NCBI RefSeq assembly: GCF_904846605.1
Contig: NZ_CAJHBI010000005.1
Span: 62,001-126,000 of the forward strand
Length of the DNA stretch: 64,000 nucleotides
Direction of reading: 5' to 3'
Source of the DNA: Psychrobacter sp. 72-O-c
GTDB lineage: Bacteria; Pseudomonadota; Gammaproteobacteria; Pseudomonadales; Moraxellaceae
The notes beneath the pieces were generated by a model, which saw only the letters and a list, made by a program, of their open reading frames with translations, searched no databases and was not told where the DNA came from. Positions 47,938 to 54,291 of this stretch are shown here, piece by piece; positions within the stretch are counted from its first letter, which is position 1, and each line of letters opens with the position of its first letter. Made by a program: the position numbers and the translations under genes.

Positions 47938-48085
47938 ATATAGTCAGTACCAAATAAAATGCATACACATATGATTTCGTATAGTGGGTAAAATTTTTCT
48001 GGCTTGCGGTGCAACTGCTTCATTTCAGAGGCTGCGAAAATTCATCCCAGTAGCACGGTATCGTTTTTAAATGAAATTAACTATA
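47938..48085. repeat. MITE-like repeat, copy D
   Basis: Starts TATAGTCAGTACCAAATAAA, contains TTTCGTATAGTGGGTAAAAT and CAGAGGCTGCGAAAATTCAT, and ends ATTAACTATA. It lies in the 392-bp gap between the MarC gene (start side) and the nadC stop. Confidence 0.8.
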
Positions 48086-48164
48086 TTGATTAAGCTATAA
48101 CTTAAAAACGATGATTAAATGACTATTAAACCGGCAAACAACAGTGCTTTTAAAGCTACTAAAG

Positions 48165-49025
48165 CTATGCACTAAAATCAAGGCCGATATCAAGCGCGGT
48201 TGTGCTATGAGTCAGATAACCCATGGCGATAAAATCAACGCCCGTTTTTGCCACAGCTTGCACTGTTCCAGGGGTAATACCGCCTGATGCTTCGGTTTTT
48301 GCTCGTCCTTGACACATAGCTACCGCCTGCTGCAAAATTTCGGGCGACATATTGTCCAATAAAACTAAGCTCACGCCCGCTTCTAATGCCAGCTCTAGTT
48401 GGGCCAAGTTATCAACTTCAACCTCAATCGGAATCAAATGCCCAGCAAAATCTTGTGCTTGTTGAATAGCAGTAGTAATGTCACCTGCTATCGCAATATG
48501 ATTGTCCTTGATTAAAATCGCATCATCCAATCCTAAACGATGATTGCGTCCACCACCGCAGCGTACGGCATACTTTTGCACAATTCGCAGTCCTGGGATA
48601 GTCTTCCGAGTACAAGTAATCTGCGCTGGATAATCTGCTACGCTATCGACAATCTGCCGGGTCGCCGTAGCGATACCGCTCAGATGAGTCATAAAATTCA
48701 GCGCAGTTCGTTCTGCTGTTAGTAGATGACGGGCATTACCGCGAACGGTAGCCAATACCGTATCAGCCGCAACCCTCTCACCATCGGCAACCTTTGCTAC
48801 AAACTCAATATGGGTATCAATTAGTGCAAAAGATAAGCGCGCCAAGTCCATACCGCAAATCACACCGGCTTGGCGAGCCTTAATCTGTAATTGCGCTTGC
48901 ATATCTGCCGGAATGGTCGCCTGCGAAGTCACATCACCGCGCCGGCCCAAATCTTCTGTCAATGCCGCCTCTACCAATGGCTTAAGTAACACTTCATCTA
49001 GCGCTGGCTCTGGTTTGGTTATCAT
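48165..49025 (-). CDS. nadC: Quinolinate phosphoribosyltransferase NadC
   Basis: A 286-aa protein, standard length. It shows the ERTALNFMTHLSGIATATRQ block, CTRKTIPGLRIVQKYAVRCG and GGRNHRLGLDDAILIKDNHI (substrate and PRPP binding), and SGGITPGTVQAVAKTGVDFI. It makes nicotinate mononucleotide from quinolinate in de novo NAD synthesis. AAGGGG six bases ahead supports the start. A near-palindrome shared with nadA lies 139 bp upstream, so both are probably controlled by the same regulator. Confidence 0.95.
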   Translation of the reverse strand: MITKPEPALDEVLLKPLVEAALTEDLGRRGDVTSQATIPADMQAQLQIKARQAGVICGMDLARLSFALIDTHIEFVAKVADGERVAADTVLATVRGNARHLLTAERTALNFMTHLSGIATATRQIVDSVADYPAQITCTRKTIPGLRIVQKYAVRCGGGRNHRLGLDDAILIKDNHIAIAGDITTAIQQAQDFAGHLIPIEVEVDNLAQLELALEAGVSLVLLDNMSPEILQQAVAMCQGRAKTEASGGITPGTVQAVAKTGVDFIAMGYLTHSTTALDIGLDFSA

Positions 49026-49163
49026 CTTTGCCCCTTATTTTGCTTTTTATTAATATCAATATAGTTAACCTAATTTAGAGACGGCACATTGCTACAAATG
49101 ATTCTCTTTTATTTTTAATCGACTATACCACTTATCAAAAATCACTTATCAAAATCTAACTAT

Positions 49164-49184
49164 TTAAGCTCAAAATGAGCATAA
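49164..49184. promoter_or_regulatory. Predicted NAD-regulator operator upstream of nadC
   Basis: TTAAGCTCA, AAA, TGAGCATAA: 9-bp arms with one mismatch. It is the same as the site upstream of nadA at 50975-50995 except for one base. It sits in the nadC upstream region. No clear -35/-10 could be fitted. Confidence 0.7.
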
Positions 49185-49284
49185 ATATAGCGTAAAGCGA
49201 ACGTACTCGCAAGATAAGACGGGGTTTTTATAATTAATACTACTTTCAAGAATTTAAGATAACAAGAAAGACAACTGCAAGCCC

Positions 49285-49432
49285 TATAGTCAGTATCAAA
49301 TAAAATGGATACATATATGATTTCGTATAACTGGTAAAAATTTTTCTAGCTTGCTGTGCGACTGCGTCACTCCAGAGGCTTCGAAAATTTCTTCCAGCCA
49401 TACTAATTCGTTTTAAAGTAGTTCAACTATAC
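49285..49432. repeat. MITE-like repeat, copy E
   Basis: A full-length copy: TATAGTCAGTATCAAATAAA at the left end, TTTCGTATAACTGGTAAAAA, CTAGCTTGCTGTGCGACTG, GGCTTCGAAAATTTCTTCC, and AGTAGTTCAACTATA at the right end. The two ends are imperfect inverted repeats. It lies between nadC's operator and the end of the regulator gene. Confidence 0.85.
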
Positions 49433-49519
49433 GATGACAAGCACTACATTATTAGACTTAGGGAGTCTGATAAAGTTAGCTTGTTTTTTGGGCTTACTTT
49501 TTAGGACTGCTATATAAAG

Positions 49520-50623
49520 CTATTTACGTTTGGGTAGTTTGCTATCCATCAATAAGCTTTGTAATTCAATATCATGACGGAAGCGGTATAGCTTCGCTGG
49601 GCGACCACGCTGGGCATTACTACTCTCTCCGGTCGACATGACTAAATCTTGCGAATCCAGTAGACGGCGAAAGTTTTGCTTGTGCAAACGCATCCCTGAT
49701 AAAGCTTCAATACTTTGTTGTAGCTGCGATAAGGTGAAGACATCAGGCATCAAGCCAAATATAAGCGGACGATACTCAATCTTTGCTCGTAGCCTTGAGA
49801 TGGCAGTGGCAATCACGCGGCGATGGTCGTAGTACATCGGCACGCCTATCATTTGTGACCAATCCGCCGGTAATTTATTAGGCTGATCATTGGATAAGTA
49901 AGTAGGCGGATAAGTGGGCGCTTCCGGAATCAGACCGGCTTCGTATAGCATCTCATAACGCAGCAACACATGTTCTGCAACCCATTCATATTCATAGTTA
50001 CTGCCTGCGGACTCACTACTTGCGTACTCGTTGCTGTCATATTCATGATTGTCGCTTAATTCGTAATGACCTTTTTTATCTTTATCTTTATCTACATCGT
50101 CTTGCAAAAACTCCGTACCCACTCCCCAACATAAGCGGATGCGCTGACGGCGACGATGCTGGGCAGTCTTATCAATAGCAGTATCTGCCCAAGTCAATAA
50201 TGCAGGCACAATGAAGCGCGTAATGATAGCAGGCGCGCCAGCCAAATGATTTTCCCATGGAAAATAATCATACCAATCGCGCCATAACGCTTGGCTTTGT
50301 AAATTGGCCGTTTGGGTCTCTTGTACTAAGCCCAAATAACTGACGTAGACCAGCGCATGGCCATCGATATTGCGGCGATTGGTATCGACAAAGGTATATA
50401 ACTGCTCTAAATAGCCCAGCGGCTGCTGCGTCTGCTCTTCAACCCACTGACGCACGCCCGCTTGTAATGAGCGATGTAAGGGCATTAAAGGGCCATTGGG
50501 TAGCAGCTTACCTTGGTCTACCGTTAGGACACGCGCTGTATGGTCAGTAATAGCGACAAGCACGGCGACCACTTCGGTGGTGCCATTACCCTGCTGGTGC
50601 GCATGCGAATAAGACAACGTCAT
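49520..50623 (-). CDS. Nudix-like, winged-helix transcriptional regulator of NAD synthesis (NrtR/NadQ type)
   Basis: A 367-aa protein. The N-terminal part (about 15-150) has Nudix-fold features (VVAVLVAITDHTARVLTVDQ, GVRQWVEEQTQQPLGYLEQL) but a degenerate Nudix box, as in ligand-sensing NrtR/NadQ repressors rather than hydrolases. The C-terminal part (about 280-360) is a winged helix: FTLSQLQQSIEALSGMRLHK, FRRLLDSQDLV and RGRPAKLYRF. An acidic, repetitive linker at about 185-215 is unusual. It lies between nadC and nadA-nadB, with matching palindromes upstream of both. Length and targets suit NadQ somewhat better than NrtR; both are possible. Confidence 0.75.
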   Translation of the reverse strand: MTLSYSHAHQQGNGTTEVVAVLVAITDHTARVLTVDQGKLLPNGPLMPLHRSLQAGVRQWVEEQTQQPLGYLEQLYTFVDTNRRNIDGHALVYVSYLGLVQETQTANLQSQALWRDWYDYFPWENHLAGAPAIITRFIVPALLTWADTAIDKTAQHRRRQRIRLCWGVGTEFLQDDVDKDKDKKGHYELSDNHEYDSNEYASSESAGSNYEYEWVAEHVLLRYEMLYEAGLIPEAPTYPPTYLSNDQPNKLPADWSQMIGVPMYYDHRRVIATAISRLRAKIEYRPLIFGLMPDVFTLSQLQQSIEALSGMRLHKQNFRRLLDSQDLVMSTGESSNAQRGRPAKLYRFRHDIELQSLLMDSKLPKRK

Positions 50624-50747
50624 AGTGTTTATTGATTACCCTTTATTTTTAATAGTGTAGTGATGCTTTAATAAAGCAAGATACTGATAGCAAAACTCAG
50701 TATAACGTGAATAGGGTCCTAAATTCTGTCTTATCATCGTAGACAGA

Positions 50748-50902
50748 TATAGTCAGTTCACAATAAAAGAGAGTCGTGTATAGCAACGTGCTACTGGTAT
50801 AAATTTTTCTGGCGTGCTGTTCGCAAGCGGGACAGAGGCTGCAAAAAATTCATTCCAGTAGCCCAGTAACATTGTATCGTTTTCAAATTGAATCGACTAT
50901 AT
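50748..50902. repeat. MITE-like repeat, copy F (second subfamily)
   Basis: Left end TATAGTCAGTTCACAATAAA, then AGAGAGTCGTGTATAGCAAC, the inner inverted repeat GCTACTGGTATAAATTTTT / AAAAATTCATTCCAGTAGC, and right end TTGAATCGACTATA. It is the longest copy and shows the fold-back structure best. It lies in the 469-bp divergent gap between the regulator gene and nadA. Confidence 0.85.
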
Positions 50903-50968
50903 CATTACCCTCCTAAATCTTTACCACACTAAATGATAGCTTTAAAAAGTAAATTCTACAAAAATAAC

Positions 50969-50996
50969 TTGCACTTATGCTCAAAATGAGCATAAT
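50969..50996 (+). promoter_or_regulatory. Candidate nadA promoter overlapped by the operator
   Basis: A TTGCAC (50969-50974) and a CATAAT (50991-50996, one mismatch to the -10 consensus) are spaced by 16 bp, and the palindrome fills the spacer. This is the arrangement expected for repression by steric block. The -35 match is weak. Confidence 0.45.
50975..50995. promoter_or_regulatory. Predicted NAD-regulator operator upstream of nadA
   Basis: TTATGCTCA, AAA, TGAGCATAA: a perfect palindrome with 9-bp arms. It is the same core as the nadC site. It lies in the divergent region between the regulator gene and nadA, so it could control nadA-nadB and the regulator itself. Confidence 0.75.
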
Positions 50997-51092: not shown

Positions 51093-52232
51093 ATGAAAAC
51101 TTATCCTTATGACGCTCCCCTATTAAGTACTGATAACCGCAGTGCTATTAAGCTTAATATCGAATATGCCAAGGCCAAGATGCCAGCTGATTTGCCGCGC
51201 GCTGAGCGTTTGGTAGTTGAAGATAATATTAAGCAGCTGTTAAAAGACAATAATGCGGTATTGGTCGCGCACTATTATGTTGACCCTTTTATTCAAGATT
51301 TAGCATTGGCAACCGGTGGCTGTGTGGGTGACTCGTTAGAAATGGCTCGCTTTGGACAAGCTCATAGCGCCCAGACCTTAGTAGTCGCTGGGGTTCGCTT
51401 TATGGGTGAATCGGCTAAAATCTTGAGTATGGAAAAAACGGTCCTAATGCCAGATTTAGAAGCGGAATGTTCGCTTGACTTAGGCTGCCCTGCCGATGAA
51501 TTTTCGGCCTTTTGTGATGCCCATCCTGAACGCACCGTAGTGGTCTATGCCAATACTAGCGCAGCAGTTAAGGCGCGCGCTGATTGGGTGGTGACCTCAT
51601 CGGTGGGCATTGATATCATTCGTCATTTGCATGAGCAAGGTGAAGCGATTATTTGGGGTCCTGATAGACATCTGGGTAAGTATATTGCGCAGGAAACAGG
51701 CGCTGATATGCTGTTATGGCAAGGTTCTTGTATGGTGCATAATGAGTTTAAAGCGACTGAGCTTGAGCAGTTAAAAGCAGAACATCCAGCAGCAAAAGTG
51801 TTGGTACATCCTGAATCGCCTGATAGCGTCGTGCAATTGGCCGATGTGGTCGGCTCGACCAGTAAGCTGCTTAAATCAACCTATGAGATGGATGCTGATA
51901 CCTTTATTGTCGCCACTGACTTAGGTATCTTGCACGAAATGCAAAAGCGCTCACCGCATAAACGCTTCTTAGCGGCACCTACTGCGGGTGAAAGTGCCAG
52001 CTGTAAAAGCTGTGCTTTTTGTCCATGGATGGCAATGAATGGCTTACAAGGTATCGAGCAATGCTTAACCAATAATACGGGTGAAGTGAGCATGACGCCT
52101 GAGCTGGCAGCAGCAGCAAGAAAGCCACTACAGCGGATGCTTGATTTTGCTGCCGCAGAAAAACAACGTGTGACTGCAAGTGGCGATATGATCAAAGACC
52201 GTCCGCTGTTTGCTAATGTTGGGGCCGCTTGA
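51093..52232 (+). CDS. nadA: Quinolinate synthase NadA
   Basis: About 379 aa from ATG 51093, which has AGAGG eight bases ahead; a TTG at 51066 would add nine residues and has no better site. Family marks are [34 protein letters not shown], the cysteine-bearing [11 protein letters not shown] and [14 protein letters not shown], and [20 protein letters not shown]. NadA uses a [4Fe-4S] cluster to condense iminoaspartate with dihydroxyacetone phosphate into quinolinate. nadB begins one base after its stop, so the two are co-expressed. Confidence 0.95.
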
Positions 52233-52233
52233 T

Positions 52234-54291
52234 ATGAGCGCAATAGTAAGCACTGAGAGTAAAGGCGTTAACGAGACTGGTTTTGAAAAGCTTAACGTAA
52301 AAAAACCTAATGTTAATAAAACAATGACTACTGAACCTCAGTCTTCTATCAAAACAGATGTCCTTATCATCGGTGCCGGACTCGCAGGACTAAGTACAGC
52401 GCTGGCCTTGCCAAAGTCGCTAAGTGTTACTATTTTAAGTAAAGCAGCGCTAGAAGCATGCTCTAGTCATTATGCCCAAGGCGGTATCGCCGCAAGTTTA
52501 GATAAAGATGACTCCATTGCTGACCATGTGGCGGACACACTCATCGCTGGGGCAGGACTGTGTGCTACCGATAACACCACTACTATCCTGAGTGCGGGAC
52601 AACAGGCAGTGCAATGGCTATGTGCGCAAGGCGTGCCATTTACCCAAGTTTCTCATATTAACGATACTCAGCAAAATAACATTCAAAACAACGTTCAAAA
52701 CAATATTCTGAATGGAAAAGCAGTTAAGGCGACTACTGACGCTCTAGCTGAATTACAAACAGCCAATTTGCATTTGACCAAAGAAGGTGGCCATGGTTGC
52801 AGGCGAGTCGCTCACGCTGACGATGCCACCGGTCGACATATTATGCAGACGCTATCGGCACAAGCGCAAGCTGCTACTAACATCACTATTTTGCCTTATC
52901 ATGAAGCGCTAACGTTATTAACAGAAGCGTCAAATGAGTCATCAAACGGCACTAGTTTGACTATGCAAACAGTAGCCTCAAACCCACACCAACACTGCCA
53001 AGGTGCAACCGTCTTTGACCATAATACTCAGCGCCAATTGACTGTTTATAGTCGCGCGGTAGTGCTGGCAAGTGGCGGCTTAGGCCAACTGTTTCAACGT
53101 GCCACCGCTCCCAACGTCTGTGTGGGCGATGGGTTGATGATGGCATGGCAAGCGGGCTGTCGATTGGCAAATTTAGAGTTCATTCAGTTTCATCCGACGG
53201 GTTTGGCATTAGGGAACAGTAATTTTCTGGTTTCAGAAGCTTTGCGCGGTGAAGGTGGCCATTTATATTGTCCGCAAACAGGCAAACGCTTTATGTTGGA
53301 CCTTGATCCGCGCGCTGAGCTGGCACCACGAGATATAGTAGCCCGCGCAATTGCTGAGCAAATTAATAATAACGGCCTTGGGTTTGTCCATCTCGATGTC
53401 AGTCACTTGCCAGCGGACTTTTTGCAGCAGCATTTCCCACAGATTTATCAAACGTTATTAGATCTAGGCATCGATATCACTACCGACCCCATTCCGGTAG
53501 CCCCTACTGCCCATTATAGTTGTGGCGGTGTGGTCACTTGCGCCAATGGCTTGACCGACGTACAAGGGTTATATGCTGCTGGCGAAGTCGCTTATACTGG
53601 TTTGCATGGTGCTAACCGTTTGGCGAGTAACTCATTACTAGAATGTGTGGTGGTTGGACGCAATATTGCCGCTCATCTACCACGCTATCTAGAAACAGTG
53701 TCTGAGTTATCTAAAAAAACCAAAACCAGTACCAAGTCAGCATCTTCAACTTCTAATATTTGGACGCCACCAAAACTTTCAAACACTCAGTCTATCGCCC
53801 TGCCCTCATTTAGCTTGATATCTGAATATAAAGATGAGTTTGATATTAAAGGCAATGTGCGTGTTGATAAAAATGAAAACATTAACGACATTACCGCGAA
53901 GTTAAAATCCTTAATGAGCAGCCATATGGGTATCATGCGGAGCGCTGAACAATTAGAGCAAGCGCTGGGACAGATACAACAGTGGCAACATGAGTGTCAA
54001 GGTTTTAGCTTAGAGGGTTCTACTACATTCAAGAGCCTTTCCCATTTTCAGCTAACACGGCAATTACAACTAGCGACCCTTATTATCCAATCTGCTTATC
54101 AGCGCTGTGAAAGTCGTGGCGGGCATTCTAGAAAAGATTATCCGCTTTTAGCAAGCCAGCCTTTAATCAGTATTATTGAGCCTTTCTTAGCAAGCAAAAC
54201 AGATAGCATAGATAACGCAATGGATAGCTTTTATCAGCCTATAGTAAATAATATAAGTTCTGAGCCGTTACTGGCAGTTGCCGCTGTCTAA
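52234..54291 (+). CDS. nadB: L-aspartate oxidase NadB, enlarged
   Basis: 685 aa from ATG 52234 (MSAIVSTESKG), clearly longer than the usual roughly 530-540. The flavoprotein core is intact: DVLIIGAGLAGLSTALALP, SSHYAQGGIAASLDKDDS, GHGCRRVAHADDATGR, EFIQFHPTGLA, SEALRGEGGHL and GLHGANRLASNSLLECVVVG. Extra length comes from about 40 polar residues at the N-terminus, an Asn/Gln-rich insert (IQNNVQNNILNGK) and a Ser/Thr/Lys-rich linker before the C-terminal helical domain. It oxidises aspartate to iminoaspartate for NadA. Start at the later Met (52324) is possible but lacks a ribosome site. Confidence 0.93.
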   Translation: MSAIVSTESKGVNETGFEKLNVKKPNVNKTMTTEPQSSIKTDVLIIGAGLAGLSTALALPKSLSVTILSKAALEACSSHYAQGGIAASLDKDDSIADHVADTLIAGAGLCATDNTTTILSAGQQAVQWLCAQGVPFTQVSHINDTQQNNIQNNVQNNILNGKAVKATTDALAELQTANLHLTKEGGHGCRRVAHADDATGRHIMQTLSAQAQAATNITILPYHEALTLLTEASNESSNGTSLTMQTVASNPHQHCQGATVFDHNTQRQLTVYSRAVVLASGGLGQLFQRATAPNVCVGDGLMMAWQAGCRLANLEFIQFHPTGLALGNSNFLVSEALRGEGGHLYCPQTGKRFMLDLDPRAELAPRDIVARAIAEQINNNGLGFVHLDVSHLPADFLQQHFPQIYQTLLDLGIDITTDPIPVAPTAHYSCGGVVTCANGLTDVQGLYAAGEVAYTGLHGANRLASNSLLECVVVGRNIAAHLPRYLETVSELSKKTKTSTKSASSTSNIWTPPKLSNTQSIALPSFSLISEYKDEFDIKGNVRVDKNENINDITAKLKSLMSSHMGIMRSAEQLEQALGQIQQWQHECQGFSLEGSTTFKSLSHFQLTRQLQLATLIIQSAYQRCESRGGHSRKDYPLLASQPLISIIEPFLASKTDSIDNAMDSFYQPIVNNISSEPLLAVAAV

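Follow-up and report, generated by a model that had tools for sequence, protein, structure and literature searches.

A predicted NadQ regulon with unequal operators at nadC and nadAB in Psychrobacter

The window analysed here, a 64-kb (64,000-nucleotide) stretch of DNA from Psychrobacter sp. 72-O-c, carries three genes of NAD synthesis together with the gene of a putative regulator. The gene nadC for quinolinate phosphoribosyltransferase (286 aa) is located on the minus strand at 48165–49025 (Pfam QRPTase_C, E 4.1e-61; NCBIfam nadC, 332 bits at a cutoff of 198.4), and on the same strand nadQ (49520–50623) encodes a 367-aa protein with a Nudix-like and a winged-helix half. On the plus strand, nadA for quinolinate synthase (379 aa from the ATG at 51093) occupies 51093–52232 (Pfam NadA, E 1.1e-104; NCBIfam nadA, 352.5 bits, cutoff 262.9), with nadB for L-aspartate oxidase immediately 3' of it at 52234–54291 (NCBIfam nadB, 504.2 bits, cutoff 452.75). 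The palindromes that the original prediction described upstream of nadA and nadC were confirmed at 50975–50995, where TTATGCTCAAAATGAGCATAA forms a perfect 9-3-9 palindrome, and at 49164–49184, where TTAAGCTCAAAATGAGCATAA contains one broken pair. Both are predicted NadQ operators.

The weight of the evidence for these operators lies in their shared sequence, in their position flanking the regulator gene, one upstream of nadC and the other upstream of nadA, and in their uniqueness in the genome. A search of the 3.22-Mb genome with the 21-mer, allowing up to three mismatches, returned solely the nadA site (perfect) and the nadC site (one mismatch), a third row being the opposite strand of the nadA site, and the backward control returned 0. 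The claim that the motif occurs nowhere else therefore held in the genome-wide scan, with two places and no scatter. PMC5343134 gives the NadQ consensus as ttATRCTCannntGAGYATaa, with nadABC as core targets and nadQ often clustered with them. To this consensus the nadA site fits with 0 mismatches and the nadC site with 1. This looser consensus matches the same genome at 4 places when up to 2 mismatches are allowed and at 14 places when up to 3 are allowed, the backward control giving 0 and 5, respectively. Two of the places with 2 mismatches (C33 and C54) were considered as additional regulon members and rejected, being situated inside reading frames. The bare core ATRCTCNNNNNGAGYAT was found once in the genome at zero mismatches, as was its backward control, and 1–5 times per genome in 60 genomes of the genus compared with 0–3 times for the control. 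Due to these counts close to the control, the bare core is too unspecific to define the regulon.

Within the genus, nadQ is present in 97 of 100 genomes, and the order nadC-site-nadQ-site-nadA was seen in 43 of the 43 loci inspected. These loci represent 43 of the 97 genomes with nadQ and comprise the 30 best nadQ matches, 10 hand-picked loci and 3 others; the hand-picked ones were taken from the site list, hence sites were expected there. The 43-locus counts exclude L060 and L061, remote homologues belonging to a different family of the order, which have no sites and neither nadA nor nadC within the stretch examined. The nadA site is present at all 43 loci, at 39 of them with a perfect fit to the consensus. 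The nadC site is likewise present at all 43 (up to two mismatches), every one with at least one mismatch. At least two places matching the consensus with up to two mismatches were found in 98 of the 100 genomes (backward control 0–2). Such per-genome counts are unspecific on their own, because G083 lacks nadQ and still shows 3 places with 2 mismatches, as many as genomes with nadQ. Genomes without nadQ are G050 (83% complete), G076 (99%) and G083 (100%). In the two nearly complete ones, nadQ has been lost together with nadA and intact nadC: in G083 neither nadA nor nadC was found, and in G076 there is no nadA and nadC is limited to a 34-residue nadC-like match. All four 2-mismatch places in these two genomes lie inside reading frames.

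Several loci of the genus show a modified layout. The gene nadQ is separated from the nadA-side site by 1.1 kb and from the nadC-side site by 1.3 kb in L043 (genome G028), and from the nadA-side site by 2.1 kb in L044 (G043), while at both loci the nadA-side site is still within 90 bp of nadA. In L045 (G022) the nadC match is split into three pieces, one of them on the opposite strand. The genomes G022, G028 and G093 contain a second, NrtR-like protein, from a 264-aa frame, whose winged helix shares 41% identity with the NadQ winged helix.

Both operators are closely associated with promoter-like elements, for which the standard promoter hexamers served as reference. A candidate nadA promoter, TTGCAC-16-CATAAT, is located at 50969–50996 on the plus strand. 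It was missed by the consensus scan; its assignment is based on CTTGT and CATAATTA, which are kept around the site in at least 90% of the distinct flanks of the 43 site-aligned genus loci, with CTTGC in place of CTTGT in the window itself. The operator occupies the spacer of this promoter, as the original prediction had it and as the conserved flanks bear out, and it additionally overlaps the -10 element. At nadC, the candidate promoter TTGCGA-17-TATATT (49184–49212, minus strand) was found in the consensus scan and has a conserved counterpart in the genus, TTGC and TATATT being conserved across the 43 loci. In nadC orientation, the last base of its -10 element is the first base of the operator. 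In one of the 41 distinct nadC flanks the promoter-like element is displaced upstream by an insert. The consensus promoter scan is uninformative alone, because it found 2 promoter-like sites in the region compared with 5.8 in shuffled sequences. Autoregulation of nadQ is unsupported, since the distance between the nadQ start and the nadA-side site ranges from 164 to 2061 bp across the 43 loci.

The nadC operator is located ~140 bp from nadC in the window and 29–101 bp from it in 34 of 42 relatives, distances that are approximate because they were taken from the first aligned residue. The larger distance in the window is due to a repeat-like stretch (49055–49127) between operator and gene, which is also present in the close relative L006. 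It resembles part of a dispersed repeat, ~150 bp long and ending in short inverted sequences (TATAGTC...GACTATA), of which copies were found at 47939–48086, 49284–49431 and 50746–50903. With the copy at 49284–49431 as query, 40 matches were obtained in the same genome, the query copy included. L006 lacks the copy at 50746–50903 that separates nadQ from the nadA operator. The repeat looks like a MITE-type element, and among the papers listed by a literature search on such a repeat none mentions Psychrobacter.

In the model that we propose, NadQ acts as a repressor of de novo NAD synthesis by binding, probably in dimeric form, to the 21-bp palindromes of nadC and nadAB. Bound at nadA, it would lie across the promoter spacer and the -10 element; bound at nadC, it would lie immediately 3' of the -10 element, on the likely transcription start. 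Either placement would obstruct RNA polymerase. If the protein works like NadQ from Agrobacterium, ATP bound in the Nudix-like half would lower DNA binding and thus raise expression. Minazzato et al. 2022 reportedly found that ATP suppresses DNA binding of NadQ. Dimeric repression and its relief by ATP are carried over from the family.

The two operators are unequal. Read on the window strand, position 4 of the nadC site holds A in 38 of the 43 loci, G in 3 and T in 2, compared with T in 43 of 43 at the equivalent position of the nadA site. Among the 18 Psychrobacter loci of a wider set of NadQ loci, position 4 is off in 15, and L099, L100 and L101 are off elsewhere. In comparison to published NadQ regulons, the Psychrobacter nadC site is thus off-consensus, and at the identical base in 41 of 43 loci. 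The conserved flaw suggests a weaker site or one constrained by the promoter. Read more radically, a nadC site that is never without a mismatch, opposed to a nadA site that is perfect in most loci, could mean that the broken palindrome has rendered the nadC site weak or inactive, or that NadQ is an activator here. We consider this improbable, because each site overlaps or borders conserved promoter-like elements, so that protein bound there would get in the way of the polymerase, and because the nadC site is conserved and not decaying. In addition, NadQ is named among the repressors of NAD synthesis in a passage of PMC12421817.

The assignment of the regulator itself to NadQ is based on homology over both halves of the protein. 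Among solved structures, a single-sequence search returned NadQ from Agrobacterium tumefaciens as full-length match (7q91–7q94, E 2.1e-77). The alignment to 7q91 spans residues 15–159 and 214–365 on either side of the linker, and a profile of 17 sequences matched the same structures with E 1.5e-101. The C-terminus contains a winged helix of the NrtR type (PF21906 NrtR_WHD, residues 289–348, E 4.3e-20). The Nudix-like N-terminal domain, for which Pfam Nudix gave no match at E up to 1, is recognized by its homology to residues 43–186 of 7q91 and by weaker Foldseek matches to Nudix domains. Confidence in the predicted structural model is modest, with a mean pLDDT of 60.5. Its top 14 Foldseek matches are NadQ chains, including complexes with ATP, NAD and DNA; with a model of this confidence, the match to 7q92 reached E 1.3e-24 and the TM-scores to NadQ were only 0.43–0.60. 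Judged by sequence, the 367-aa protein is NadQ (COG4111), which substantiates the degenerate-Nudix and winged-helix architecture described earlier, the Nudix-like half being visible against solved NadQ and weakly against NrtR and other Nudix structures. As the Nudix box is degenerate in this protein, NadQ is probably not an enzyme here and probably performs no catalysis.

Since the winged helix matches both NrtR_WHD and the NCBIfam model TransRepNtr, the regulator could alternatively be taken as an ADP-ribose-responsive repressor of the NrtR type. NrtR from Shewanella (PDB 3gz5/3gz6/3gz8) indeed shares a related winged helix, and with the genus profile the N-terminal half weakly resembles its Nudix domain (3gz8, E 9.2e-4), a similarity that is remote and seen by profile. 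However, the TransRepNtr score of 56.8 bits covers residues 262–350 only and is far below the cutoff of 400. With a single-sequence search the N-terminal half is not significantly similar to NrtR (2.1 bits) but matches NadQ with E 4.7e-38, and the operator sequence conforms to the NadQ consensus. The sub-cutoff score and the N-terminal half led us to reject the NrtR assignment as very improbable, even though the profile still finds remote similarity there.

The symmetry of the operators is weak evidence alone, because 9-3-9 palindromes are not rare in the window: 1 perfect palindrome was observed with 0.47 expected from a first-order Markov model, and 16 palindromes with one mismatch were observed with 8.8 expected. 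The 15-mer core with up to 3 mismatches occurs 3 times in the window and is not enriched over the shuffle mean of 3.46. That the two palindromes reflect chance or have nothing to do with the regulator is nevertheless hardly conceivable, as one and the same sequence, unique in the genome within 3 mismatches, conserved in the genus and fitting the published consensus, is situated at both promoters.

Taken together, family membership, the sequence and place of the operators, their conservation and the co-loss with the pathway are established by the sequence comparisons. The proposal of a regulator that acts through a pair of operators, one at nadC and one at nadA, draws its support from the uniqueness of the sites in the genome, their conservation across the genus, the co-loss and the fit to the consensus. 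We therefore regard it as highly probable that the locus is the NadQ regulon of Psychrobacter, with predicted repression of de novo NAD synthesis by NadQ.

The acidic insert that the original prediction noted in the 367-aa regulator is located between the two domains (residues 172–213; 49985–50110, minus strand) and carries a net charge of -9 (D+E minus K+R). In the window protein 46 residues separate the conserved G167 and W214. This gap measures 17–50 aa in the 43 genus loci and 10–30 aa in the 18 Psychrobacter loci of the wider set, whereas all 61 NadQ proteins from outside Psychrobacter that were compared, taken from the best 79 of 578 loci, have 5–6 aa. The linker is acidic in 41 of the 43 genus loci, with a net charge of zero in L044 and +1 in L043 (L061 was left out of the linker statistics). 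Conservation of NadQ is lowest here, with 14% mean identity to the window protein at residues 181–200, and the confidence of the predicted model is below 50 at residues 176–210. The insert is best read as a poorly conserved, disordered linker that is long in Psychrobacter. We speculate, with considerable reservation, that Psychrobacter NadQ gained a fast-evolving, mostly acidic and probably disordered linker of 10–50 residues and that its two operators are maintained as an unequal pair. Such a combination could tune the response: nadAB would be switched off before nadC, which would remain partly active to use quinolinate, and the linker would adjust coupling or salt and cold tolerance.

A possible third target was found among distal places. 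Three of these in relatives (L036, L037 and L039) are inside reading frames and were rejected as regulon members. The recurrent element ATACTCATAGGGAGTAT, by contrast, is intergenic and located 54 bp ahead of a gene whose 120-aa product we take to be RlpA-like. Among the 30 upstream regions read, from 40 genomes searched, 16 have the half-site core without mismatch; in the genome of the window (L191) it is one base off. In L165–L194, TACTCATAGGGAGTA appears upstream of the RlpA-like gene as a conserved palindrome-like element with NadQ-like half-sites around a conserved centre. The centre of ATACTCATAGGGAGTAT (TAGGG) is conserved as strongly as the arms, and surrounding bases are conserved too. 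Due to this conserved centre, unlike the free centre of NadQ sites, we do not count ATACTCATAGGGAGTAT as a NadQ site and regard it as a lead to a possible third target.

As the system is the published NadQ regulon, the regulatory model is not new, and no new question is opened, structures of Agrobacterium NadQ with ATP, NAD and DNA being available. The analysis provides a clean NadQ annotation for a protein that Pfam and NCBIfam place through its winged helix only, and adds a promoter-level footprint of both predicted operators in one genus. What is new is small: the different placement of the operator at the two promoters, the off-consensus nadC site and the long acidic linker in Psychrobacter.

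Outside the genus, nadQ matches over both halves were found in 2 of the 194 genomes searched in the rest of the order (G135 and G271). Among the best 79 of 578 confirmed loci, which comprise 18 from Psychrobacter, the closest ones to the window, and 61 others, nadQ loci were also seen in some Acinetobacter, Ignatzschineria, Wohlfahrtiimonas, Neisseriaceae, Alcaligenaceae and alphaproteobacteria. This set may share strains with the genus genomes, and two of its loci (L113 and L114) share a contig: in Acinetobacter rathckeae, a nadQ-nadC-nadA locus occurs twice, ~28 kb apart and in opposite orientation. Sites were found in 40 of these best 79 loci at up to 1 mismatch (18 Psychrobacter, 22 others), in 66 at up to 2 and in 70 at up to 3, with 0, 0 and 3 in the backward control. 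Nine of the 79 have no site in the stretch examined. In eight of these there is also no nadA, nadB or nadC in that stretch, and in L144 nadC is present and the site absent.

NadQ is reported in alphaproteobacteria and several beta- and gammaproteobacteria by PMC5343134, whose main text does not mention Psychrobacter. In Bordetella and Achromobacter, nadQ adjoins nadC and sites are found upstream of nadC, as described in a passage of PMC11452294. Unlike in the window, no nadA match was found in the stretches examined at these loci. NadQ from Agrobacterium tumefaciens, with structures of the native protein (7q91) and of complexes with ATP (7q92), NAD (7q93) and DNA (7q94), is homologous to the Psychrobacter regulator in both the Nudix-like N-terminal and the winged-helix C-terminal half. 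The proteobacterial NadQ regulons (COG4111) described in PMC5343134 share with the Psychrobacter locus the same operator consensus, the nadABC targets and the clustering of nadQ with them.
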